Source: Falsiruegeria mediterranea M17 (GTDB lineage: Bacteria > Pseudomonadota > Alphaproteobacteria > Rhodobacterales > Rhodobacteraceae). Taken from it: DNA of 64,000 nt. Shown here piece after piece: positions 4,321 through 64,000 of the stretch (positions within the stretch are counted from its first letter, which is position 1; each line of letters opens with the position of its first letter). The stretch covers positions 62,001 to 126,000 of the forward strand of contig NZ_ONZG01000006.1 of NCBI RefSeq assembly GCF_900302455.1, read 5' to 3'. Both the position numbers and the translations under genes were made by a program. Below the pieces are notes generated by a model that searched no databases, had not been told where the DNA came from, and saw only the letters and a list, made by a program, of their open reading frames with translations.

Positions 4321-5495
4321 TGAAACAGGCCGTAATCGTATCGACAGCCCGCACCGGGTTGGCAAAATCATTCCGCGGGTCGTTCAACATGACCCATGGC
4401 GCAAGCATGGGGGGGCACGCGGTTCAGGCCGCCGTCGAGCGTGCGGGCCTTCAGGGCTCGGACATCGAGGATTGCGTGATTGGCTGTGGCCTGCCCGAGG
4501 GGGAAACCGGCGGTAACATCGGCCGCCAGATCGCGATCCGTGCTGGCTTGCCGGTGACCGCATCGGGCATGACCGTGAACCGCTTTTGCTCGTCGGGCTT
4601 GCAGGCCATTGCGCAGGCCGCCAACGCGATCACGCAAGAGGGCGCGGGCCCGATGGTTGCAGGTGGTGTTGAAAGCATCTCGCTGGTGCAGTCGAAAATG
4701 CGCCCCGCACCCGATCCGTGGATCCTGGAACACAAGCCCGCCATCTATATGACCATGATCGAGACGGCAGACATCGTGGCCGAACGGTATGGTCTGAGCC
4801 GCGAGTATCAGGACGAATACTCGCTGCGCAGCCAGCAGCGGATTGCAGCGGCACAGGAGGCAGGTAAGTTTGCCGACGAGATCGTGCCGATGACCACGAC
4901 GATGGCGGTCAAAGACAGGGAAACCGGTGAGATCTCGCAGAAAGAAGTCGTTGTGGACCGCGACGAATGCAATCGTCCAGGCACAACGATGGAAGGGTTG
5001 GCAGGTCTTGATCCTGTGCGTGGCCCCGGCAATGCGATCACGGCAGGCAATGCCTCGCAGCTGAGCGATGGTGCGGCCGCGGTTGTGCTGATGGAGGCGG
5101 CAGAGGCCGAAAAGCGTGGGCTTGAACCCCTGGGCGCGTTCAAGGGCTTTGCTGTCGCTGGCTGTGAGCCGGACGAAATGGGCATCGGCCCCGTCTTTGC
5201 CGTGCCGCGTCTGCTGGAACGTCATGGGCTGAAGGTCGATGACATCGACCTGTGGGAGCTGAACGAGGCCTTTGCGAGTCAGTGCCTCTATTCCCGTGAC
5301 CGCTTAGGGATCGACCCGGAGAAATACAACGTCAACGGCGGCTCGATCGCAATCGGTCATCCCTTTGGCATGACCGGTGCGCGGATGACGGGCCACCTGA
5401 TGCTGGAAGGCAAGCGTCGCGGCGCGAAGCTGGGCGTAGTGACCATGTGCATCGGCGGCGGCATGGGCGCAGCTGGCCTGTTCGAAATTTACTGA
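4317..5495 (+). CDS. fadA: Acetyl-CoA C-acyltransferase (thiolase)
   Basis: A 392-residue thiolase that cleaves 3-ketoacyl-CoA with CoA, the last step of each beta-oxidation round. Catalytic residues are visible: Cys91 in VNRFCSSG, His near 349 in IAIGHPFG, and Cys near 378 in MCIGGGMG. Length is normal for the family. The ATG overlaps the preceding stop (ATGA), so it is translationally coupled to the FadJ-type gene and the pair should form the usual hydratase/dehydrogenase-thiolase partnership. In a pim-like reading this is the PimB equivalent. Two strong hairpins follow the stop before the next operon gene. Confidence 0.92.
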
Positions 5496-9136: not shown

Positions 9137-10627
9137 ATGAGCAAATGGCATGATTTTCTGGATGATCAGATCGAGGTGCGACCTGATGCTCTTGCTTTGA
9201 CGGACGACGGCGGGGCCACATGGAGTTTCGCCGAATTTGGCCAAGCCGTCGACGCTTTGGCTGAGGAGCTGCGCAGGCGGGGTGCACGGGCCTGCGACCG
9301 GATCATGATTGTGTCCGAGAATTGCTGTGCGGCCATTGCCGCGCTTTATGCGTGCTCGCGCATCGGGGCCTGCGCCGTGCCCGTAAACGCGCGCCAGACG
9401 GGAGGTGAACTGGCGCGCATCGTCGAACATGCGCGGCCGACTTTGGTTCTGTTGACGACAGCAGCTTCGCCGGATGCGGTGAAGCATGCAGAGGCGATGG
9501 AGGCTGAGGAGTTGAACGGCAAATTCGGCGCGCTCCACATCGCGGCGCCCTTTGCCAGCGATCCGGATGCGGATTTGGATGACGTGGCGGTGATGCTTTT
9601 TACGACCGGAACAACCGGGACGCCCAAAGGGGTCATGCTGACCCATGACAACGTGCGGTTCGGCGGCATGACCTCGGCCAACCTGCGTGGGATGACACCG
9701 GATGATGTGGTCTATGGCGTGTTGCCCATTACCCATGTGTTCGGCTTGTGTTCGGTGGTCACGGCGGCGAGTTGTGCCGGCGCGCAGGTCCGGCTTGAGG
9801 CCCGGTTCTCGGCAGCGCGGCTGTACGAGCAACTGCAAGATGGCGTAACCCTGTTTTCAGCAGTGCCGCAAATGCATGCGTTGTTGATGCAATATGCCAA
9901 GGAGCAGGAGGTGGATGGAGTGCACGATTGCGCCTTGCGTTACACATCCTCTGGCGCGGCACCGCTCGATCCCGCTTGGAAACGCAAGGCCGAGGCATTC
10001 TATGGCGTTCCGATCCAGAATGGCTATGGCCTGACTGAAAGTACCGCCGGGGTGAGCGCGTCGAGCAATGAATTGGGCGATCCAGACATTTCTGTTGGAA
10101 CGGCCTTGCCAGGTGTCGCGGTTAAGGTTGATGAAACGGTTGAAGGTGGCGGAGATGGTGTCGGAGAAGTTCTGACAGCGGGCCCTCATGTGATGAAGGG
10201 CTACTATCGCAATCCCGAAGCCACTGCGGAGGCGCTGCAAGAAGGTTGGCTGCGTACAGGCGATCTGGGGTATTTCGACGACCAGGGGCGATTGCATATC
10301 GCGGGTCGGTCGAAAGAGCTGATCATTCATGGGGGGTTCAACGTCTACCCACCCGAGGTTGAGGCGGCGCTGAACGATCATCCACAGGTCATTCAATCGG
10401 CGGTGATCGGGCGCACGGTGAACGGGGATGAACTCGTCTATGCCTTTGTGCAGGCCGCAGAGGGGGATTTGCCGGATGTCGACGATCTGGCGCAATTTGC
10501 TGCCATGCGTCTGGCGGGGTACAAACGCCCCTCTCGCATCATCGTGGCAACCGGGCTACCTGCGGCACCCACCGGAAAGATCCTGAAACACCGGCTGCTC
10601 GATCACTTTGCCGACCGCTTGAGTTGA
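9137..10627 (+). CDS. Acyl-CoA ligase (AMP-forming, class I adenylate-forming family)
   Basis: A 496-residue ligase that activates a carboxylic acid as acyl-AMP, then acyl-CoA. The P-loop-like motif TTGTTGTPKGVMLTHDN lies near 155-171, YGLTESTAG near 296, GWLRTGDLGYFDDQGRLHI near 370, then GRSKELIIHGG. The C-terminal catalytic Lys lies in PTGKILKHRL near 478. GGGGAGG sits before the ATG. It ends the beta-oxidation operon and should feed it, corresponding to PimA by position-in-pathway rather than by order. Substrate is unknown: medium-chain, dicarboxylic or aryl acids are all possible. Its stop converges on rpe across a structured repeat. Confidence 0.9.
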   Translation: MSKWHDFLDDQIEVRPDALALTDDGGATWSFAEFGQAVDALAEELRRRGARACDRIMIVSENCCAAIAALYACSRIGACAVPVNARQTGGELARIVEHARPTLVLLTTAASPDAVKHAEAMEAEELNGKFGALHIAAPFASDPDADLDDVAVMLFTTGTTGTPKGVMLTHDNVRFGGMTSANLRGMTPDDVVYGVLPITHVFGLCSVVTAASCAGAQVRLEARFSAARLYEQLQDGVTLFSAVPQMHALLMQYAKEQEVDGVHDCALRYTSSGAAPLDPAWKRKAEAFYGVPIQNGYGLTESTAGVSASSNELGDPDISVGTALPGVAVKVDETVEGGGDGVGEVLTAGPHVMKGYYRNPEATAEALQEGWLRTGDLGYFDDQGRLHIAGRSKELIIHGGFNVYPPEVEAALNDHPQVIQSAVIGRTVNGDELVYAFVQAAEGDLPDVDDLAQFAAMRLAGYKRPSRIIVATGLPAAPTGKILKHRLLDHFADRLS

Positions 10628-10640
10628 GCAACTTGGGGGA

Positions 10641-10829
10641 GCTCCCGTGCCCGAGCAGACCTGACTGCGTCAGCCCCGCTAACGGCCTTGGGCCGGGCGC
10701 CTCGCCTGCGGCTCGGCGCGGTTCTGATTGGGGCAACTGGTTTGCCACAATCACCAACCACCGAGCGCAGCGAGGCCCGGCCCAACGGGAGGAAGTGCCC
10801 CGCCAGGGGCATTGACGACGGACGGGAGC
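10641..10829. repeat. Structured palindromic intergenic element, copy A
   Basis: A 189-bp element with terminal arms GCTCCCGT (10641-10648) and ACGGGAGC (10822-10829). Inside are CTGAC-TGC-GTCAG (10661-10673), TTGGGCC (10688-10694) pairing with GGCCCAA (10779-10785), an inner GCGCC/GGCGC hairpin near 10698-10719, and TGCCCC-GCCA-GGGGCA (10796-10811). A 33-bp block at 10761-10793 is identical to copies B and C. It fills the junction between the convergent ligase and rpe genes. No reading frame in it looks coding. Confidence 0.8.
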
Positions 10830-10852
10830 GTTTCGCCTCTTGAATGGTACCC

Positions 10853-11542
10853 TTAGACGTAGACGCCTTCGGCTGCGGCGCGAACGGCGCGGATGTTCTC
10901 ACCATAAACGTCCGGGTTCGAAACCGATCCGCCGCGGAACACGGCTGAGCCCGCGACCAGCACATCGGCACCAGCCTGGGCCACCAGGGGAGCCGTATTC
11001 GGGTCAACGCCGCCGTCGATTTCGATGTGAACGGGGCGGTCCCCGATCATCTCACGCAGGCGACGGACCTTGCCGGTCATGTCGATGAACTTCTGCCCGC
11101 CAAAGCCCGGGTTTACGGTCATCACGCAGACCAGATCCGTCAGGTCCAGAAGATGTTCCACGGCTTCGGCCGGGGTGCCCGGGTTCAGCGCGACACCTGC
11201 CTTCATACCAGCGGCGCGAATGGCCTGCAGGGTGCGGTGCGTATGCGGCCCCGCTTCGACATGTGCGGTCAATACATCAGCGCCTGCGTCCGCATAGGCG
11301 TCTATGTAGGGATCAACCGGAGCGATCATCAGGTGTACGTCCATCACTGTTTTCACATGCGGACGGAAGGCTTTCACGGCCATTGGGCCGAAGGTCAGGT
11401 TCGGCACAAAATGCCCGTCCATCACATCCACATGCACCCAATCCGCACCTTGCGCTTCGATGGCTTGGATTTCCTGGCCAAAGTTCGCGAAATCAGCGGA
11501 GAGGATCGACGGGGCGATCTTGATGGAACGGTCAAAGGTCAT
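10853..11542 (-). CDS. rpe: Ribulose-phosphate 3-epimerase
   Basis: A 229-residue TIM barrel that interconverts ribulose 5-phosphate and xylulose 5-phosphate in the pentose phosphate and Calvin pathways. Signature blocks are IAPSILSADFANFG at the N-terminus with the catalytic Ser/Asp region, HVDVMDGHFVPNLTFGP (metal-binding His and Asp), MTVNPGFGGQKF, and IDGGVDPNTAP with the second catalytic Asp. Length matches the family. ATG 11542 is preceded by AGGTG at 8 nt; a GTG three codons upstream is possible. The promoter must lie in the 228 bp shared with the divergent phnC. Confidence 0.95.
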   Translation of the reverse strand: MTFDRSIKIAPSILSADFANFGQEIQAIEAQGADWVHVDVMDGHFVPNLTFGPMAVKAFRPHVKTVMDVHLMIAPVDPYIDAYADAGADVLTAHVEAGPHTHRTLQAIRAAGMKAGVALNPGTPAEAVEHLLDLTDLVCVMTVNPGFGGQKFIDMTGKVRRLREMIGDRPVHIEIDGGVDPNTAPLVAQAGADVLVAGSAVFRGGSVSNPDVYGENIRAVRAAAEGVYV

Positions 11543-11687
11543 GAGTGGCACCTGAATGTGAGTGAAACCGAGCGAGTCGCTGGCTCATATAGGCCCAAAT
11601 GCTGCGCGCGAACAGAGGAAGAGCAGGATTTGACCCTGCCTCGAAGTTTCCAATCGCCTGGTTTCACCACCGGATCCGCCAATTCGG

Positions 11688-11716
11688 TCGTTACAAAACC
11701 TTCACCGCTTCGACAC
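11688..11716 (+). promoter_or_regulatory. Candidate Pho box: three 7-mers at 11-bp spacing upstream of phnC
   Basis: TCGTTAC (11688), CCTTCAC (11699) and TCGACAC (11710) recur at exactly 11 bp with 4-bp spacers, the geometry of PhoB direct repeats (CTGTCAT-type half-sites). Each matches only 4-5 of 7 positions, so the case rests on spacing plus location 55-83 bp before phnC, a classic PhoB target. The divergent rpe promoter shares this region. Confidence 0.4.
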
Positions 11717-11770
11717 ATACGTTTTGTCTTTGCCCCTTAGCCACCCGACAACAATCACTGGGGGTGGCTC

Positions 11771-12589
11771 GTGCTGCGGATCAACAAACTTACCAAACGC
11801 TTTGGCGCAAACACCGCTGTCGATGCGGCGACGCTGGATGTGGACAAGCCCTGCATGATCGGGATCATCGGCCGCTCTGGTGCGGGTAAATCGACACTCC
11901 TGCGCATGTTGAACCGCCTCGAAGAAACAACCGAGGGCACGATTACGTTTGAAGGGCGTGACGTCACCGCCCTCAAAGGCAAGGACAAGCGTGCATGGCA
12001 GGCCGAATGCGCCATGATCTTTCAGCAGTTCAATCTGGTGCCACGTCTAGATGTGGTTTCGAACGTGCTGCACGGCACGCTCAACCGTCGCTCGACCTTG
12101 TCGACCATGTTCAATCTCTTTCCCATGGCGGACATCCACAAGGCCATCGACATCCTGGACCGTCTGGGCATCGCCGAGCACGCCCCCAAACGCGCCGAAG
12201 CTTTGTCGGGTGGACAGCAACAACGCGTGGCCATTGCGCGTGCCCTGATGCAGGACCCCAAGATCATCCTGGCGGACGAACCCATTGCCTCGCTCGACCC
12301 GATGAACGCCCAAGTGGTGATGCAGGCCCTGCGCCGCATCCACGAGGAAGACGGACGCACCGTGATTGCCAACTTGCACACGCTTGATACAGCGCGCCGC
12401 TATTGTGACCGCGTGGTTGGCATGCGCGACGGGCGCATCGTGTTTGATGGCCTGCCCGAACAGCTGACCACGGGCGTTGCCCGCGAGATTTATGGCGCCG
12501 GTGCAGATTTCTCCGAGGCCGCGACCTCGACCGAGATCGACACGCTGGAAGCCAGCACCGGCGCAAAACTCGTCAAAGAAGCGGTCTGA
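11771..12589 (+). CDS. phnC: Phosphonate ABC transporter ATP-binding protein
   Basis: A 272-residue ATPase that drives phosphonate import through PhnE. Walker [10 protein letters not shown] lies near residues 34-42, the signature LSGGQQQR near 145, Walker [13 protein letters not shown] near 164, and the switch His in NLHTLD. The LADEP Walker B and the insert after the Q-loop ([19 protein letters not shown]) are typical of PhnC. It begins with GTG 11771, with GGGGTGG just upstream. It opens the phnCDEE operon and probably responds to phosphate starvation through the Pho-like box upstream. The frame ends 69 bp before phnD. Confidence 0.95.
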
Positions 12590-12658
12590 CCCGCTCCAAT
12601 CCCTTTCATCACCCGGGCCCGATGGGGGGTCGGGAAAACTTAACCGGAGAACCCAAAG

Positions 12659-13567
12659 ATGAAAAAACTGATCGCAGCCCTTGCGGCGACCACTGCCTTG
12701 GCCACCCCGGCCCTGGCCGAAGACAAATCCATCAGCGAATTCCGCATCGGCCTGCTGGGCGGTGAAAACGCTCAGGACCGTCTGAACAACAATGAGTGCC
12801 TGCGCGCCAAGACCGAGGAACTGCTTGGCGTTCCGACCAAGCTGTTTGCCCCCGCCGACTATAACGGCGTGATTCAGGGCCTGCTAGGCGGCACGATCGA
12901 CATGGCATGGCTGGGTGCATCGGGTTATGCCAAAACCTATCTGTCAGACCCCGAAGCGGTTGAGCCGATCCTGGTCAAGGTCAACAATGACGGCGGCTAC
13001 GGCTACTACTCGATTGGGTTTGCCCGCAAGGACAGCGGCATCACCTCAATCGAAGACCTTAAGGACAAAACCTTTGGTTTTGGCGACCCGAATTCGACCT
13101 CAGGTTTCCTGATCCCCTCGATCGAGATCCCCGAAGTGACCGGCGCGACCATGACCTCGGGCGATTACTTTGGTGAAGTGAAGTTCACCGGTGGTCACGA
13201 GCAGACCATCGTTGCCGTAAACAACGGCGACATCGACGCGGGCGTTAGCTGGGCTGACGGTCTGGGTGAATGGGAAGACGGTTTCAACTCGGGCGCTTTG
13301 CGCCGTGCGGTTGATGCGGGTCTGGTTGACATGAACGATCTGGTCAAAATCTGGCAGTCCAAGCCGATCCCCGAAGGTCCGATCGTTCTGCGCAAAGCTC
13401 TGCCCGAAGACGTCAAAGTCAAATTCACCGCTCTGATGGCCTCGTTGCCTGCGATGGACCCCGATTGCGCTTATGGCGTTCTGTCGGGTGAGGCCAAAGG
13501 CGTGATGCCGATTGGCCATGACGCCTATGAGGTCATCATCGAAGCGCGCAAATTGAAGTCCAACTGA
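12659..13567 (+). CDS. phnD: Periplasmic phosphonate-binding protein
   Basis: A 302-residue solute-binding protein. MKKLIAALAATTALATPALA is a clean Sec signal peptide with cleavage after ALA, so the mature protein is periplasmic. The mature part shows family features: FRIGLLGGEN near the mature start, LGGTIDMAWLGASGYAKTY, GFGDPNSTSGFLIPS (phosphonate-site loop) and AVNNGDIDAGVSWADG. PhnD captures alkyl- and aminoalkylphosphonates for the PhnC/PhnE importer. AACCGGAGAACC precedes the ATG. A hairpin with a T-tract directly downstream probably raises phnD output above the membrane genes. Confidence 0.95.
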   Translation: MKKLIAALAATTALATPALAEDKSISEFRIGLLGGENAQDRLNNNECLRAKTEELLGVPTKLFAPADYNGVIQGLLGGTIDMAWLGASGYAKTYLSDPEAVEPILVKVNNDGGYGYYSIGFARKDSGITSIEDLKDKTFGFGDPNSTSGFLIPSIEIPEVTGATMTSGDYFGEVKFTGGHEQTIVAVNNGDIDAGVSWADGLGEWEDGFNSGALRRAVDAGLVDMNDLVKIWQSKPIPEGPIVLRKALPEDVKVKFTALMASLPAMDPDCAYGVLSGEAKGVMPIGHDAYEVIIEARKLKSN

Positions 13568-13584
13568 TTTCAGCACCAAACGCG

Positions 13585-13618
13585 CGGGGCTCGGCACCAA
13601 ACGCCGGGCCCCGTTTTT
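13585..13618 (+). terminator. Intrinsic terminator-like attenuator between phnD and phnE
   Basis: CGGGGCTCGGC (13585-13595), loop ACCAAAC, GCCGGGCCCCG (13603-13613): 11 bp with one G-U pair, then TTTTT (13614-13618). It is codirectional with the operon and sits right after the binding-protein gene, where partial termination is common in ABC operons. Confidence 0.75.
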
Positions 13619-13633
13619 GACGGGAGCATTCCA

Positions 13634-14503
13634 ATGACAGACCTGAGTGCAGGGTCCCCTTCGGTCGCAGACATTCGCGACGATTACTCCGCGCTGGTTC
13701 AGCGCAAACGGGTCTATGGTGGTATTCTCCTGATCCTCTTCATCAGCCTGATGGCGGCGGGGTTCCGCACGGCGGACACCCGCAACGCAGGGTCGTTCGT
13801 AGACGGCTGGCGTCGCATTCTGGATTACCCGACCGAGGTGCTTAGCGAGGCCTGGGAAAAGGTCGCACTGCTGCCTGGCCATCTGGCGCACTTCATGCCG
13901 GCTCTGATCGAGACGCTGAACATTGCTGCCGCATCAACCCTGATCGGTGCTGTGTTGGGCACCTTCCTGTCGTTGTTGGCCACGCGCGGCATGGCGCCTT
14001 GGCCTGCGTTAATTCCCGTCTTTCGCCGGATCAGCGACATCTGCCGCGCCATCCCCGAGATCGTGATTGCGCTGGTGCTGATCTTTGTTCTGGGCGGCGG
14101 GCCGGTTCCGGCGATGATCGCCATTGCGATTCACACGGCCGGTGCGTTGGGCAAGCTGTTTTCGGAAGTAAATGAAAACGCCTCGCTCAAACCTGTCGAG
14201 GGGCTGCAGTCGGTCGGCGCATCCTGGGCGCAGCGGATGTACCTGGGTGTGATCCCGCAAGTGGGTCCGAACTATGTCAGCTATGCCCTGCTGCGGTTCG
14301 AAATCAACATCCGCGCTTCGGCCATCCTGGGCTTTGTTGGAGCCGGCGGTATTGGCTATGAGCTGCGCAATTCAATGTCCTGGGGGCAGGGGCGCTATGA
14401 CGAGGCCGCCGCCATCTTCATCCTGCTGTTTGTCACAATCGTTCTGGTCGACCAGTTGTCTGGCGTCCTGCGCAATCGTCTGACCCACGGAGCTGCGTCA
14501 TGA
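13634..14503 (+). CDS. phnE: Phosphonate ABC transporter permease (first PhnE)
   Basis: A 289-residue inner-membrane permease of the PhnE type. A hydrophobic segment near 32-48 (YGGILLILFISLMAAGF) is followed by the BPD_transp_1 core (about 95-285) with several membrane helices. The coupling (EAA-type) loop GLQSVGASWAQRMYLGV, which docks on PhnC, is followed by IPQVGPNYVSYALLRFE. Its stop overlaps the start of a second phnE by ATGA, so the two subunits are produced together and probably form a heterodimeric channel. Confidence 0.93.
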   Translation: MTDLSAGSPSVADIRDDYSALVQRKRVYGGILLILFISLMAAGFRTADTRNAGSFVDGWRRILDYPTEVLSEAWEKVALLPGHLAHFMPALIETLNIAAASTLIGAVLGTFLSLLATRGMAPWPALIPVFRRISDICRAIPEIVIALVLIFVLGGGPVPAMIAIAIHTAGALGKLFSEVNENASLKPVEGLQSVGASWAQRMYLGVIPQVGPNYVSYALLRFEINIRASAILGFVGAGGIGYELRNSMSWGQGRYDEAAAIFILLFVTIVLVDQLSGVLRNRLTHGAAS

Positions 14504-15870
14504 GCACCTTTGCTACCAATTTGCCCACCGAGGCGCTCAAGGCTGAGGCCGACAAGATCTTTGTCCGCAAGAGGATTGTGAACTTTGGCCTGCCGATCTT
14601 GGTGCTGCTGTATCTGGCCTATGTGTTCTTCGCCTTCGACGTGCCCAGCCTTTATGAGAAAGCCAGTTGGAAGAACGGCAAGACGCTGGTTTCGGACAGC
14701 TACAGTTACAAGACCCACGTGACGCGCGACAACCGCAGCGGCGAAGTTTCGGTCGCCATCGAAGGCGAGCGCAAGGGCGAATACCCCGAAGGTATGTCGC
14801 CTGAGTGGGTTGAGATGGGTGAGACCACGGTTATCGACCTGGAAGACGGCTACATCGTCACCTTTGGTCTGGACGTGATCGAATTTGACGTTCCCAATTA
14901 CGGTGTGATCCGCGCAACCCCAGACCGGCGCAAAGGTGTGCAAGCTGAATTGCCCGCAGGGGACGTACCCGAGTGGATCAACCTGTCCAAGAACCGCCTT
15001 GCCGTGACCACCGAAGCTGGTCGCCTGACCGTGACTCGCAACCGCGCCGAAGTGTTTCGGTATTTCACCGGCTGGGAACTTTTCTGGTTTACCCTCGACA
15101 GCCCTTACTACGGAAAAGGGCCGGGGGAGTTGATGGGTCTGGCTTTTGCGGGCGAGGCTGGTGCGATCTGGAACGATTTCTGGACCAACAAGATGTGGCG
15201 GCATCAGGATGTCGCCTGGGCGATCTTTGAGACGATCCTGATGGCCTTCCTGGGGACGCTTGGCGCAGGCATCGTGGCATTGCCGCTCGCCTTTATGGCC
15301 GCGCGCAACTTCAACCCGCTGGGGCCGCTGCGCTTTGGCGTGCGCCGGGTGTTCGACTTTGTCCGCGGCGTCGATGCGCTGATCTGGACCGTGGTTCTGA
15401 GCCGCGCCTTTGGGCCGGGGCCTCTAACTGGAGCGCTGGCGATTTTGGTGACGGACACGGGCACTTTCGGCAAGATCTTTTCCGAGGCGTTAGAAAACGT
15501 CGACAAAAAGCAGATCGAGGGCGTGCAATCCACAGGGGCCAACGCACCGCAGCGCTATCGGTTCGGGGTGATTCCGCAGATTACACCGGTGCTGATCAGC
15601 CAATTGCTGTATTTCCTGGAATCCAACACCCGCAGCGCAACCATCATCGGCGCGATCACCGGGGGTGGCATCGGTTTGCTGCTGACGCAGGCGATCATCA
15701 CCCAGAAGGATTGGGAAGAGGTTGCATACTACATCGTGCTGATCATCCTGATGGTGATGTTCATGGATTGGTTCTCGGGTTGGCTGCGCCGCAAACTGAT
15801 TTCGGGGGATGTCAAAACACCACGCAAGCGCAAGGGGGATCCAAAGGCGAAGCCCTTCGTCTTGCCCTGA
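14500..15870 (+). CDS. phnE: Phosphonate ABC transporter permease (second PhnE, with large periplasmic insert)
   Basis: A 456-residue permease, about 170 residues longer than the first PhnE. After the first membrane helix (about 26-48, FGLPILVLLYLAYVFFAFDV) comes roughly 150 hydrophilic, beta-rich residues (about 55-205, with repeated VSVAIEGERKGEYP- and YIVTFGLDVIEF-like strands) before the permease core begins. Topology predicts this insert is periplasmic. The core keeps the coupling loop GVQSTGANAPQRYRFGV and GAITGGGIGLLLTQ. Paired long and short PhnE proteins are seen in alphaproteobacterial phn operons, but the insert's role is undefined; it may contact PhnD. A strong terminator follows. 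Confidence 0.92.
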   Translation: MSTFATNLPTEALKAEADKIFVRKRIVNFGLPILVLLYLAYVFFAFDVPSLYEKASWKNGKTLVSDSYSYKTHVTRDNRSGEVSVAIEGERKGEYPEGMSPEWVEMGETTVIDLEDGYIVTFGLDVIEFDVPNYGVIRATPDRRKGVQAELPAGDVPEWINLSKNRLAVTTEAGRLTVTRNRAEVFRYFTGWELFWFTLDSPYYGKGPGELMGLAFAGEAGAIWNDFWTNKMWRHQDVAWAIFETILMAFLGTLGAGIVALPLAFMAARNFNPLGPLRFGVRRVFDFVRGVDALIWTVVLSRAFGPGPLTGALAILVTDTGTFGKIFSEALENVDKKQIEGVQSTGANAPQRYRFGVIPQITPVLISQLLYFLESNTRSATIIGAITGGGIGLLLTQAIITQKDWEEVAYYIVLIILMVMFMDWFSGWLRRKLISGDVKTPRKRKGDPKAKPFVLP

Positions 15871-15883
15871 CACTTTGAAATCG

Positions 15884-15924
15884 AAGCGCCGTTGATGGAT
15901 CTGATCCGTCAGTGGCGCTTTTTT
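15884..15924 (+). terminator. Strong intrinsic terminator after the phnCDEE genes
   Basis: AAGCGCCGTTGATGGAT (15884-15900) and ATCCGTCAGTGGCGCTT (15904-15920) pair over 17 positions, with G-U wobbles, around a CTG loop. The run of six T at 15919-15924 completes a textbook Rho-independent terminator. The acetyltransferase gene starts only 20 bp later, so readthrough or a short separate promoter must supply it. Confidence 0.85.
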
Positions 15925-15943
15925 GTTTGAGAAAGACCACAAG

Positions 15944-16564
15944 ATGACCGAGCCCCGGCTTAAGCCTGACGCACCTTTCCTCCACCCCGATTGCCAGGTC
16001 CACGACAGCCAGTTTGGGGCCTATGTCGAGATCGGCGCAGGCACCCGATTGAACAACACGACCTGGGGAGATTATTCTTATTGCGATCGAACCTGTGATG
16101 TGGCCAATGCCCAGATCGGCAAGTTCTCCAACATCGCCAGCTTCACCCGGATCGGGGCGACGGATCATCCGATGGAGAAGGCCTCGCTGCATCATTTCCA
16201 CTATCGCTCGGCGGATTATTGGGCGGATGCCGAGCATGATGCAGATTGGTTCGCCTATCGCGCCAGCCGCATGGCGCAGGTTGGCCATGACACCTGGATC
16301 GGCCACGCCGCAATCATCAAGCCTGAGGTCACGATCGGTCATGGCGCGGTGATTGCGTCCGGAGCAGTGGTGACGAAAAACGTGGCCCCCTACACGATTG
16401 TGGCGGGCGTGGCGGCCACCGAAGTGCGCCGTCGGTTCCCTGAACAGGTCGCTGAGCGCATGATGGAACTGGCGTGGTGGGATTGGGGCCATGACGTCCT
16501 GTGCGAACGTCTTGCTGATTTTCGCACCCTAAAGGCCGAGGCGTTTCTGGAGAAGTACACCTGA
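15944..16564 (+). CDS. Phosphonate-operon hexapeptide-repeat acetyltransferase
   Basis: A 206-residue left-handed beta-helix acyltransferase. Hexapeptide-like turns run through GAYVEIGAGTRLNNTTWGDY and continue as IGKFSNIASFTRIGATDHP, HDTWIGHAAIIKPEVTIG and GAVIASGAVVTKNVAPYTI. The pattern, with an inserted loop rich in His/Tyr (LHHFHYRSADYW), fits the xenobiotic-type family found in phosphonate operons. It probably acetylates an aminoalkylphosphonate or related amine, the job PhnO does in E. coli with an unrelated fold; that is inference from context. I chose ATG 15944 (GAGAAAG at 15929-15935) over an ATG seven codons upstream that overlaps the terminator's tail. Confidence 0.85.
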   Translation: MTEPRLKPDAPFLHPDCQVHDSQFGAYVEIGAGTRLNNTTWGDYSYCDRTCDVANAQIGKFSNIASFTRIGATDHPMEKASLHHFHYRSADYWADAEHDADWFAYRASRMAQVGHDTWIGHAAIIKPEVTIGHGAVIASGAVVTKNVAPYTIVAGVAATEVRRRFPEQVAERMMELAWWDWGHDVLCERLADFRTLKAEAFLEKYT

Positions 16565-16578
16565 GCCATTCGGGGGCA

Positions 16579-16764
16579 CTCCCGCGCCCGCGCTGATCCC
16601 GGCTTCGCCGAAATCGCTGGCGGCCTTGGGCCGGGCGCCTCGCCTTCGGCTCGGCGCAGCCGCACTTGGGGTGACTGTTTTGCCACAAGCGCCAGCTGCC
16701 GAGCGCAGCGAGGCCCGGCCCAACGGGAGGAGGGCATCTTAGATGCCTGATCGACGGGCGGGAG
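16579..16764. repeat. Structured palindromic intergenic element, copy B
   Basis: Terminal arms CTCCCGC (16579-16585) and GCGGGAG (16758-16764); inner hairpins CGGC-TTC-GCCG (16600-16610) and GGCATC-TTA-GATGCC (16733-16747); long-range TTGGGCC (16626-16632) with GGCCCAA (16717-16723). Each helix matches one in copy A, though several have different bases. The 33-bp identical block is 16699-16731. It lies between the convergent acetyltransferase and phnF genes. Confidence 0.8.
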
Positions 16765-16772
16765 CGCTCCGC

Positions 16773-17483
16773 TTATGTTTCACCCAAGGTCAGCGTGACG
16801 TGATCGCCGGCAAACCACGTGCGGCCAAACTCGACCGGACCCCCGTCAGGATCGACATTGACACCCACTGATTGCATCACTGGCGCGCCTTCTGGTACGC
16901 GTAGGTGCAAGGCCTGCGTTGCGCTGGCGCGGCGGGCGGTTAGGCGGGTCCACCTACGGGTGTAGTCGGCGATGCCGAGCCCTTGCAGTGCGCGGGTGAC
17001 GGATTGCGTTTCTTCAAGGGCTTTCAACATGCCGGGAAAGCGGCCAGCTGGAAAGACACTCTGGAATACCGCGATCGGTAGCCCATCCGCCAACGACAAC
17101 CCGTCGTAGACATGCACCGGATCGCCACTTTCCAGACACAGAGCCTCGGCCTCTTGCGCGTCTGCTGCTCGTGTCGTCAGAGCCAGGATCTGCTTGCCGG
17201 GGATCTTGCCGCTGGCCGAGATGTTCTGGTGGTACCTCACCCGCCTGCCAATGGGATACTCGGTTGGTCGCGCCGCGACGAAGACACCCGCGCCGCGCCT
17301 CGCGTGCACCAGCCCTTGTTCTGACAGTTCGGCCAATGCCCGCCGAACAGTATGACGATTCACGCCATGGGTTGCGGACAATTGCGCCTCGGTCGGCAGG
17401 CGGTCGCCATTGCGATATCGACCCTCGGCAATGTCTGAGGTGAGGCTGGCGGCGATGGTCTTCCAGACGGGTGTGCGGCTCAT
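16773..17483 (-). CDS. phnF: GntR/HutC-family transcriptional regulator of phosphonate genes
   Basis: A 236-residue regulator. The N-terminal winged helix-turn-helix (about 1-70) reads WKTIAASLTSDIAEGRYRNG then LPTEAQLSATHGVNRHTVRR, with the wing GLVHARRGAGVFVA. The remainder (about 85-235) is a UTRA ligand-binding domain with VHVYDGLSLADGLPIAVFQ and a C-terminal GPVEFGRTWFAGDHV. PhnF proteins repress C-P lyase operons and are released by a phosphorylated or phosphonate ligand (family knowledge). The gene is divergent from phnG; the shared 103-bp region holds a palindromic site placed to control phnG transcription and perhaps phnF itself. Confidence 0.92.
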   Translation of the reverse strand: MSRTPVWKTIAASLTSDIAEGRYRNGDRLPTEAQLSATHGVNRHTVRRALAELSEQGLVHARRGAGVFVAARPTEYPIGRRVRYHQNISASGKIPGKQILALTTRAADAQEAEALCLESGDPVHVYDGLSLADGLPIAVFQSVFPAGRFPGMLKALEETQSVTRALQGLGIADYTRRWTRLTARRASATQALHLRVPEGAPVMQSVGVNVDPDGGPVEFGRTWFAGDHVTLTLGET

Positions 17484-62075: not shown

Positions 62076-63788
62076 ATGAGATTCCCTTTGCGCCTTAAAT
62101 TCTTTGTGTTTGCTGTTTTGCTTGCCGTCGGTCCCCTGGCCTTGGTCGGTCAGAATCTGACACGGCTCTCGCGGGATGAGCTCAAAAGCGCTGCCAACGA
62201 AGATCTGACCACCGTGGCCGCGCAGTTGCGCACCGCGTTTGACAACACGTTCGAAGGGCGCTGGCTAACGCCGCTGATGGTCATTCGCAACGCAGTGGAC
62301 AGCAACGAATTGGGGGTGCCGCAGAAAGTGTCCCTGCTGACATTGGGGTTGGAGGAGTTGCCCCAGGTCGTCGCTTTGCAACTGTCCGTCGAAGGTTCGG
62401 ACCTGCCCATTTTAGTCGCGAACGAGGGGTTTGCCGGTAAACTCGCACAGGCCGGGTTGGACCCGGTCGGGACCCTTGCGACCTCTCCCGATCTGATCCG
62501 TGCGTTTGCAGGCACGGGCCAGTTTGGCCGCCCGGTTGTGAACCGAGTGCCCGAGACCGGCGATTGGCTGGCAACTCTGGCGCTGCCGCTGACGACGCAG
62601 ATCGCAGGGCGACAGGTGACGATGGCAGCGAAGATCGAGCTGTCGATCCTGGGGGATATGGTGCGCCGCCACCCCTTTGCGCAGCGCGGCGAGATTTCCA
62701 TCGTCGATCAGGCTGGGCGGCGGGTGCTGGGTGACAATCCGGAACTTTTGATCCAGCGCCAAATCGTGGCCTCGACCATGCCGTTGATCGTGGCGGGTGC
62801 GCGGGCCGATGCGCTGGAACCCTATGTGCGCCCCGACGGCATGGCGATGCTCGGGGCCTATGCCTTTCCCGACTGGTTCCAATGGGCGGTGATCACCGAG
62901 TTGAGCGAAGACAACGCTTATGCGGTGGTCAATGCTATTACGCGACAGATCCTGATCGTTGGCCTGATCGGCTTTGCCATTGCCGCCGTGGGGGCCTTGA
63001 TCTTTGCCCGTCAGCTGACCCGGCCGATTCTGGCGATCGGGTCGGTGGCGGAAAAGGTGGGCGAGGGGGATTTTGCGGCGCGTGTCGAAAACGTCCGGGC
63101 ACGGGATGAGATCGGCGATCTGGCGCGCCGGATCAACCAGATGATCAGCCACCTGGGCGAGCGGATGGAACTGATGAAATTTGTCTCGCATGGCACCATG
63201 TCCGCGATCCAGAAGGCCGAGACAGAGGGGATGGAGCGCGGGGGCGAACGCCGCAAGATCTCTGTCATCTTTACGGATATCCGCGGCTATACGGAGTTTT
63301 CGGAACGGGTGCCGCCCGAAGTTGTGATCGAAGTGTTGAACCAATATTTCGATGTGCAGGCCGACATCGTGACCGAGTATGGTGGCGATGTGGACAAGTT
63401 CATTGGCGATGCACTTGTTGCGGTTTTCGAGGGCGAAGACATGGAATTGCGCGCAGTGGAGTGTGCGGTGGGGATCACGCAGGCCATGGCGCGGTTGCTC
63501 GAGCAGCATCCCGAACATAACCTGCATGTGGGCATAGGCGTGGCCTCGGGCGAGGTGGTGATGGGGGCCATGGGGGCACGGGACCGGATGGATTTTACCG
63601 TGCTTGGATCGACCGTGAACCTGTCCGCCCGGCTCTGTTCCAAGGCCGAGCCGGACCAGGTGCTGATAGATCAGGCCACCCGCGATGCAGCATTGGATCG
63701 AAACGGAGTGACCTTTGAGGCCCTCGATCCGATCCCGCTCAAGGGGTACGCAGACCCGGTGCCTGCCTTCTCTGCCAAACGCGCTTAA
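62076..63788 (+). CDS. Membrane-bound class III adenylate/guanylate cyclase with HAMP
   Basis: A 570-residue sensor cyclase. Helix 1 (about 8-26, FFVFAVLLAVGPLALVG) and helix 2 (about 287-311, ILIVGLIGFAIAAVGALIFA) flank a periplasmic sensor of about 260 residues, Cache-like in size. A HAMP linker (about 311-363) leads to the cyclase domain (from about 395). VIFTDIRGYTEFSERV has the first metal Asp, GGDVDKFIGDALVAVFEG the second, and DFTVLGSTVNLSARLC is also present. It would make cAMP (or cGMP) on an envelope signal. AGGA is 9 nt before the ATG. Placed 51 bp after the PKD gene, it likely senses events related to those envelope proteins. Confidence 0.9.
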   Translation: MRFPLRLKFFVFAVLLAVGPLALVGQNLTRLSRDELKSAANEDLTTVAAQLRTAFDNTFEGRWLTPLMVIRNAVDSNELGVPQKVSLLTLGLEELPQVVALQLSVEGSDLPILVANEGFAGKLAQAGLDPVGTLATSPDLIRAFAGTGQFGRPVVNRVPETGDWLATLALPLTTQIAGRQVTMAAKIELSILGDMVRRHPFAQRGEISIVDQAGRRVLGDNPELLIQRQIVASTMPLIVAGARADALEPYVRPDGMAMLGAYAFPDWFQWAVITELSEDNAYAVVNAITRQILIVGLIGFAIAAVGALIFARQLTRPILAIGSVAEKVGEGDFAARVENVRARDEIGDLARRINQMISHLGERMELMKFVSHGTMSAIQKAETEGMERGGERRKISVIFTDIRGYTEFSERVPPEVVIEVLNQYFDVQADIVTEYGGDVDKFIGDALVAVFEGEDMELRAVECAVGITQAMARLLEQHPEHNLHVGIGVASGEVVMGAMGARDRMDFTVLGSTVNLSARLCSKAEPDQVLIDQATRDAALDRNGVTFEALDPIPLKGYADPVPAFSAKRA

Positions 63789-63808
63789 ATGGGCTGTAAC
63801 TCGGGGGG

Positions 63809-64000
63809 CTCCCGCGCCCGGGCTATCCCGACTGCGTCGGCACCGCCAACGGTCTTGGGCCGAGCGCCGGGCAAAGCCCGGCGCGGTTCCGGCCAGGGGC
63901 ACTCTCCCGTCTGAAATGGCTTAAGTCGGTTGCGGCCAGACGCAGCCGCCGAGCGCAGCGAGGCCCGGCCCAACGGGAGGAGATGCCCCGATAGGGGGCA
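63809..64000. repeat. Structured palindromic intergenic element, copy C (cut by window end)
   Basis: Left arm CTCCCGC (63809-63815); CCGAC-TGC-GTCGG (63828-63840); TTGGGCC (63855-63861) with GGCCCAA (63967-63973); inner GCGCCGGGC-AAA-GCCCGGCGC (63864-63884); TGCCCC-GATAG-GGGGCA (63984-64000). The identical 33-bp block is 63949-63981. The right terminal arm lies beyond the window. It follows the cyclase stop by about 20 bp. Confidence 0.75.

Follow-up and report, generated by a model that had tools for sequence, protein, structure and literature searches.

Three copies of a structured intergenic element (copies A, B and C) lie in the window, that is, the whole 64,000-nt stretch of DNA that was analysed. 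Based on Pfam matches, copy A was found between an acyl-CoA ligase gene (AMP-binding, plus strand, ending at 10627) and rpe (minus strand, ending at 10853), copy B between a hexapeptide-repeat transferase gene (plus strand, ending at 16564) and a GntR/UTRA regulator gene (minus strand, ending at 16773), and copy C downstream of a HAMP/guanylate-cyclase-domain gene (plus strand, ending at 63788). The reading frames at 11771–16564 resemble an ABC-transporter cluster with the transferase gene, followed by copy B, beyond which the regulator occupies 16773–17483 on the opposite strand, an arrangement that recalls phosphonate uptake loci. The helices quoted for these copies in a first-pass annotation of the window were all present in the sequence, as was the 33-bp block it had described as identical. 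The features are listed below, with bits from the covariance model and z scores for folding relative to dinucleotide shuffles.

10634–10836, plus strand: copy A, full inverted-pair element (213 bits; z −4.3 on the plus and −4.2 on the minus strand)
10642–10647: left arm CTCCCG of outer stem P1, pairing with 10823–10828 (helix 1, nearly invariant, 99.4% of cells paired)
10650–10686, minus strand: hairpin H1 of the left half, CTGAC/GTCAG core, c(GCA)g loop on the minus strand
10688–10694: left arm TTGGGCC of P3, pairing with 10779–10785 (helix 5, 97.4% of cells paired)
10697–10719: hairpin H2, GCGCC..GGCGC, an inverted relative of H3 (helix 6 of the 98-copy alignment)
10761–10775, plus strand: hairpin H3 (hpB), CCGAGC GCA GCGAGG, with tandem G-A pairs and a GNA loop in the alignment
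10781–10793, plus strand: conserved linker CCCAACGGGAGGA, with CCCAACGGGAG invariant across 35 aligned copies
10796–10811, plus strand: hairpin H4 (hpA), TGCCCC GCCA GGGGCA, fold kept on the plus strand
10814–10828, plus strand: conserved tail GACGACGGACGGGAG, including the right arm of P1, positions mostly invariant in 35 copies
16571–16772, plus strand: copy B, full element (174.6 bits; z −2.7 on the plus strand)
63801–64000, plus strand: copy C, full element running past the window end (64000) to 64025 (162.9 bits)

The layout of a copy begins with the outer arm CTCCCG, H1, TTGGGCC, H2, a variable centre and H3 (CCGAGC GCA GCGAGG), and continues with GGCCCAACGGGAGGA, H4 and then CGACGGGCGGGAG or a near variant, while a central arm (TTGGGCC/GGCCCAA) encloses H2 and H3. 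Among the aligned copies H2 took the forms TC/TC, GG/CC and GC/GC, and H3 in other copies had GC/GC or GG/CC replacing the tandem G-A pairs; the two hairpins changed type independently in the alignment, as judged by eye, and a long-range pairing between them was rejected on this ground. Read from the centre outwards, a directional module consists of hairpin hpB, linker CCCAACGGGAGGA, hairpin hpA and tail GACGGGCGGGAG, and the full element is this module with a diverged inverted copy of it on its left. The first-pass description of an intergenic family with a palindromic nature was supported, and the observation proved right but larger than described, the central arm, the inverted-pair architecture and the copy number having been missed.

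Searching the genome that holds the window with the exact module pattern returned 97 matches, and the reversed control returned none. By blastn with copy A we obtained at least 44 matches (40 of 168 candidates scored), which were 75–90% alike with the query itself excluded and are thus not identical duplicates. The covariance-model search proposed earlier was performed with a model built from 35 copies and yielded 139 hits at E ≤ 0.001 in this genome, of which 67 exceeded 80 bits; the weaker hits include further pattern-matching modules (e.g. C11:67136 and C11:263996) and also opposite-strand hits on the same place. Each of four genus genomes gave more than 130 hits at the same threshold, weak ones included. 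The hairpin and gene-context counts given below draw on 63 of the 97 own modules together with the best-scoring places of genomes G001 (20 loci) and G003 (17 loci, 16 modules). Because the 63 were selected for similarity to copy A or for model score, full copies are favoured among them. A left arm was present by pattern in 60 of the 63, and some copies (copy C in L041; L009) are mislabelled by the 5'-arm rule, which looks for CTCCCG within 320 nt.

A wider scan used the pattern CCCAACGGGAR-N18..40-ACNGGCGGGAG, in which the core of linker and tail is fixed and the hairpins are left free, and matched at least 110 stretches in named genomes. The resulting wide set contains 114 modules in at least 110 listed stretches, identical modules being counted once, and is not wholly outside the genus, 19 of the 110 listed stretches coming from two Tropicibacter genomes that match G002 and G003. 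Among the matches listed, the stems differed almost from copy to copy (100 distinct stems in 114 for hpA, 97 in 113 for hpB), and median folding energies were −10.9 versus −4.2 kcal/mol shuffled for hpA and −20.5 versus −13.4 kcal/mol shuffled for hpB. A compact version of about 130–150 nt, without H3 and the long centre, was found in other genera.

The pattern was present in 28 of 248 sampled genomes of the family (27 of 247 genera) and in none of 140 genomes outside it; among 142 genomes of the class it occurred only in the window's own. The wide-scan matches listed fell in Rhodobacteraceae or Rhodobacterales genera, besides three 'Alphaproteobacteria' records of one bin, the remaining two records being titled 'Nocardioides marinus' and Anaerolineales. 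The former (L188) recurs at the same position in family genome G240, and its title is probably wrong; the latter (L218) lies inside a gene by the caller, looks like chance and was retained in the counts. Spread on plasmids was ruled out by the lack of any match to copy A in PLSDB.

We assessed selection on the structure in an alignment of 98 copies, which was fitted to the model and hence leans towards it: 90.6% of cells pair, and 20 of 46 pairs show change on both sides. Cells with a both-sided pair change numbered 246, versus 84.8 in shuffles and at most 117 for slid structures, and on every measure none of 500 shuffles reached the observed value. All six modelled pairs of hpA showed both-sided changes. 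The signal was smaller when RNAalifold was applied to the first 35 copies, with 6 of 36 pairs changed on both sides and a covariation term of −1.68 kcal/mol.

A stronger test compared the same site across species in ortholog pairs of equal length, which are not independent, some own copies entering twice or more. For hpA (24 pairs), double changes left 29 cases paired and 1 broken, and single changes 21 paired and 9 not; for H1 folded on the minus strand (29 pairs), the corresponding numbers were 26 and 3 for double changes and 39 and 8 for single ones. With shuffled partners the test gave 9.3 of 17 and 3.9 of 8.4. H3, scored by standard pairs, showed little compensation (6 double changes paired, 4 broken, and 39 single changes broken), and its inner two positions were non-standard in 78 of 90 cells because most copies have G-A there. 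The selected structure claimed in the first-pass annotation was borne out both by the covariation in 98 copies and by these compensatory changes at orthologous sites. Its statement that bases change while pairing is kept holds for the compensatory double changes, and another part of the variation consists of hairpins exchanged whole between orthologs.

Across species, most copies examined have stayed at the same gene 3' ends. Judged by both flanks, 13 of the 16 copies from G003 and 15 of the 20 from G001, plus one further G001 site, occupy sites common to the own genome, and recent spread by identical duplication, which had been named as counter-evidence to a selected structure, does not describe copies whose sites are mostly common to several species. 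The copy of locus L019, for example, starts 42, 41 and 42 nt past the stop in three genomes, and many ortholog pairs agree in how far the element lies from the flanking stops although the surrounding spacer diverges; the 20 nt beyond the right end were 0.633 alike in orthologs versus 0.539 in random pairs and are almost unalignable. Some sites are older than the genus: that of copy A beside rpe recurs in G034 and G041, copy B shares both flanks with G001 and Tritonibacter mobilis and its left flank with Pseudophaeobacter sp. EL27, and the site in G102 corresponding to own copy L222 holds an inverted single module. The site of copy C is common to Tropicibacter sp. R16_0. As an anchor, rpe itself was rejected, with a module beside it at only 3 of 30 fetched family rpe loci, one being the window's own.

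A few sites differ in content. One G001 site lacks the element in the own genome, where the left gene differs, and at junction L217 the orthologs of the genes around copy C are convergent, 4 nt apart by the heuristic caller, and element-free. In Pseudophaeobacter leonis (L175), the site of own copy L015 holds a terminator-like G+C hairpin with a T-run instead of the element. The sequence at fixed sites is fluid as well: identity between orthologs exceeded that of the best paralog in only 8 of 39 pairs (medians 0.836 versus 0.891; mean paralog 0.795), and the hpA type differed in 8 of 36 ortholog pairs, two of which (L019/L267 and L233/L272) are artefacts of the typing rule. Whole hairpins were probably exchanged between some copies.

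Gene contexts were taken from a heuristic codon-based caller that misses genes (e.g. the GntR gene beside copy B), so that the counts carry error: 44 of the 63 own modules were convergent, 14 ++, 3 -- and 1 -+, with the left side unknown for 1, and the 114 wide modules among the matches listed comprised 59 convergent, 13 ++, 21 -- and 5 -+, with 16 having an unknown side. The flanking stops lay a median of 30 and 32.5 nt from the element. Of 60 own full copies, 12 had a terminator-like hairpin ahead of the element on the left side and 8 on the right, some of these hairpins being far off. T-runs of at least 4 followed 10 of 60 right ends versus 7 of 180 control windows, a modest enrichment, and within 22 nt they were found at 10 of 60 right and 5 of 60 left ends, which falls short of the U tract directly following an intrinsic terminator. 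The intrinsic-terminator match was weak at the right end of copy B, and there was none at the right end of copy A.

Imperfect pairs revealed which strand is kept foldable. On the plus strand, hpA carried 50 G·T versus 2 A·C in 93 genus hairpins and 53 versus 8 in 99 wide hairpins among the matches listed, and H1 carried 3 versus 97 in 91 genus hairpins and 3 versus 28 in 38 wide hairpins among the matches listed, the wide H1 count being the fairer one since a large share of the genus 97 is suspected to be a few inherited positions. The right half therefore keeps its fold on the plus strand and the left half on the minus strand, each being selected to fold on the strand that points outward. This bias is independent of the direction of neighbouring genes: H1 in ++ contexts (21 genus copies) had 32 G·U on the minus and 2 on the plus strand, hpA in -- contexts (21 wide copies among the matches listed) had 19 on the plus and 6 on the minus strand, and one-sided differences in H1 between eight ++ ortholog pairs, which are unpolarised, ran 8 to 0 towards G·U on the minus strand. 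An mRNA 3' end made by the neighbouring gene would not give such a bias, whereas an anti-antisense barrier or single-stranded DNA would, and a simple mRNA 3'-UTR function was rejected as the main cause because the bias ignores gene direction. When folded freely, hpB had more G·U on the minus strand (49 versus 8 among the wide matches listed, 156 versus 1 in the genus), which we put down to its G-A pairs; with 16 G-A-type hairpins removed from the wide matches listed, it showed no strand bias (8 versus 10).

The loops were examined in the same hairpins. GNRA loops in RNA require a purine at the third position, and unusual stability in DNA is a feature of c(GNA)g and c(GNNA)g loops as well as of tandem G-A pairs in C-GA-G; a literature search on the DNA stability of such loops found no DNA-hairpin paper. 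Among distinct genus hairpins, 76 of 94 hpB loops were c(GNA)g and 64 of 83 H1 loops were GNA on the minus strand, all of these GNA loops being closed by C-G. Four-base loops in genus hpA were GNYA in 29 cases versus GNRA in 20, and the three wide hairpin sets among the matches listed gave 34 GNYA (17+11+6) versus 13 GNRA (9+3+1). Within the wide matches listed, GN(N)A loops made up only 37 of 105 for hpA, 49 of 111 for hpB and 22 of 39 for H1, and the hpA triloops there had no strand bias (GNA 11, reverse complement 10). The loops thus lean towards DNA while covering only part of the hairpins.

At the ends of IS200/IS605 elements and of MITEs derived from them, the hairpins are strand-specific and short recognition sequences lie 5' and at the terminus. 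The present element is like them in both respects, as well as in the incomplete Y1 frame that one element in G018 contains, and differs in having mirrored halves on opposite strands. A Y1_Tnp transposase was found in 0 of 4 genus genomes, on which ground a RAYT in the genus was rejected; elsewhere in the family a Y1 transposase occurred in 4 of 12 module-bearing versus 0 of 12 module-free genomes, the comparison covering 12 of the 28 module-bearing genomes and 12 low-numbered module-free ones. In G018 (L328, reverse-complement coordinates 1080–1795), an incomplete IS200-like Y1 frame (profile positions 2–32 and 65–119) is flanked by a left half on one side and a shortened right half on the other, in 715 bp, and parts of this inner sequence recur at 86–91% in two Rubricella loci (L120 and L173). 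This Y1-containing element might be a relative that is autonomous, or else a repeat that received an insertion. None of five other Y1 loci fetched was flanked by a full module.

We tentatively interpret the family as a REP-dimer or REPIN-like element working through single-stranded DNA hairpins, a reading held at slightly less than even confidence. It draws on the opposite strand bias of the halves, which persists in ++ and -- contexts, on the pyrimidine at position 3 in 34 of 47 four-base loops among the wide matches listed, on the covariation, the occurrence of inverted pairs and single modules and the gene-end placement, and on the Y1 transposases of module-bearing genomes together with the incomplete frame in G018. 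From this we infer that it is single-stranded DNA that folds, and not the 3' end of an mRNA. Each half would fold as single-stranded DNA on its own outward-pointing strand, for example the lagging strand or a displaced strand, and the hairpins would position the two linkers that carry GGGAG for an enzyme, in a manner likened to REP and IS200/IS605 ends, with GGGAG 5' of the hairpin and at the outer terminus. Via such an enzyme the family probably spread long ago; in the genus the element may now be almost static, kept by some protein or by sequence exchange between copies, and it may lie behind genes because such DNA can be tolerated there, with a barrier to read-through as a possible secondary benefit. 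The first-pass proposal of a mobile palindromic element thus survives as a kinship to REP dimers, with genus copies that, where examined, are mostly static, and with no Y1 transposase found in four genus genomes.

Several observations count against the REPIN-like reading. None of the four genus genomes has a Y1_Tnp and so no mobiliser was found, P1 and P3 join the halves on one strand so that the whole element can fold as one RNA, and the partial loop evidence, the hpB free-fold bias, the T-run enrichment and the little H3 compensation weigh in the same direction. Compensatory change at fixed sites also suggests a host-level function, against a purely selfish repeat. A domesticated single-stranded-DNA element, with mirrored modules held at fixed gene-end sites for the age of the genus as landing or loading sites for a host protein, is in our estimate unlikely; if true, folding of the two modules on opposite DNA strands would be selected regardless of transcription and the sites kept without a Y1 transposase, and the protein would act on single-stranded DNA. 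Persistence of the structure might come from descent and exchange between copies if these were functionless relics of an old REP/MITE expansion, as the patchy distribution over 28 of 248 family genomes, the rarity with which orthologs beat the best paralog and the differing hpA types would suggest, and we regard this as improbable given that the element stays structured, with compensatory changes, beside a flank that can hardly be aligned.

Among RNA-based explanations, a bidirectional 3'-end or insulator RNA, in which outward transcripts fold in the half reached last and would thereby be ended or trimmed ahead of the opposing gene, is the main rival, doubtful but a substantial possibility. 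The convergent placement of 44 of 63 modules, the stops close by on either side, the T-run enrichment after the ends, the terminator-like hairpin of P. leonis at the site of L015 and the fact that the folding strand is that of the transcript heading into the neighbour all speak for it. Against this, the strand bias is unchanged where the folding strand has no transcribing neighbour, 11 of 64 wide single modules among the matches listed lie in -- contexts with the folding strand antisense, in several copies one of the two flanking genes already has an ordinary intrinsic terminator before the element, the orthologous convergent pair 4 nt apart does without an element, and the four-base loops have no GNRA bias. 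The structured RNA or bidirectional 3' end suggested in the first-pass annotation was accordingly contradicted in part, by a folding strand independent of flanking transcription and by the missing purine preference of the loops. A family of trans-acting small RNA genes could explain the compact version with its closed structure in other genera and is very improbable in view of dozens of copies, two opposite folding strands, the absence of an Rfam match and sigma-70-like sites at the shuffled rate (2 found versus 1.5 expected at 10500–17000). Just as little credence is given to an attC-like single-stranded recombination site: GCCCAAC fits RYYYAAC, folding is strand-specific, and OTH-22-1 is described as attC-like in the sections consulted of PMC8632094, while the partner box GTTRRRY is absent after hpA, where the matching place reads GACGGGC, and the copies are dispersed over the genome rather than in cassette arrays.

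Turning to described systems, REP dimers come nearest among those found, above all the CGTC-tagged REPs in the available sections of Di Nocera et al. (2013, PMC3733652), which share with the REPIN-like element considered here an occurrence in Alphaproteobacteria, inverted dimers without a dedicated transposase and a placement beside the 3' ends of genes and between convergent ones. As described in those sections, they are units of 20–40 bp with stems of 8–9 bp beginning with A-T pairs and mostly a CCA tail, and the unit rule given there further sets a loop of 4–5 with the first two pairs A-T. The present element has predominantly inverted (HH) dimers near gene 3' ends as in that account, but two hairpins with variable stems and two long conserved linkers: hpA stems range from about 5 to 11 bp and follow no A-T rule, loops are mostly 3–4 nt, the module exceeds 60 nt, and in place of a CCA tail the minus strand continues with TCCTCCCGTTGGG or a near variant. 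We therefore did not file it under CGTC-tagged REPs, the unit size, stem rule and tail all differing. CGTC is present on the minus strand of the tail beside hpA, possibly by chance. With GTAG REPs and REPINs, as far as the same sections of PMC3733652 go, it shares two inverted hairpin units and gene 3' ends; GGAG stands 5' of the hairpin where those have GTAG, and the element differs in having no Y1 transposase in the four genus genomes, stem sequences that are not conserved and a much larger unit. The HRC-8-4 motif of Rhodobacterales, a terminator-like stem-loop at cco operons in the consulted part of PMC8632094, comes from the same order and is set apart by its description, not being a dispersed inverted pair.

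No Rfam 15 family exceeded its gathering threshold within the window (for copy A the lowest E-value was 2, at 17.9 of 71 bits), which ruled out membership in an Rfam family and agrees with the earlier remark that no named family matches. In the text portions covered, the Ruegeria pomeroyi small-RNA paper (PMC4809877), the 104-RNA survey (PMC2864571) and the 26-genome survey (PMC8632094) contained no matching description. Motif strings occurred only in papers with unrelated titles, and a literature search, with subscription papers and supplements lying outside it, found no description of the family. The family is real and under selection and apparently has no name; it consists of REP-dimer-like elements in Rhodobacteraceae. 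A long-standing question about REP-type repeats is whether they are selfish or useful and whether RNA or DNA is their acting form. It becomes testable where wobble pairs reveal the strand kept foldable and species can be compared site by site, here in a searchable family carried by roughly one ninth of the sampled genomes of a large bacterial family.

Variants of the module were seen in several places. Upstream of single modules at L130, L132, L149, L161 and L167, a second repeat (approximately AAATACCCCGGGGTGAATTGGCC..GAGGGGC, by eye) was noticed, and its position upstream of modules without a detected left arm resembles REP mosaics. Many modules of G018 carry another hpA type (GGAGCGNNAGCGAC) with G-A rich stems. 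Own copies L020 and L026 have a different left hairpin (GCCC TGAC GGGC and GCCC TCAC GGGC, respectively), as if H1 had been replaced whole, and at 5178–5350 of L124 (Mangrovicoccus sp. HB161399) two modules with canonical linkers face each other in a more symmetric inverted pair.
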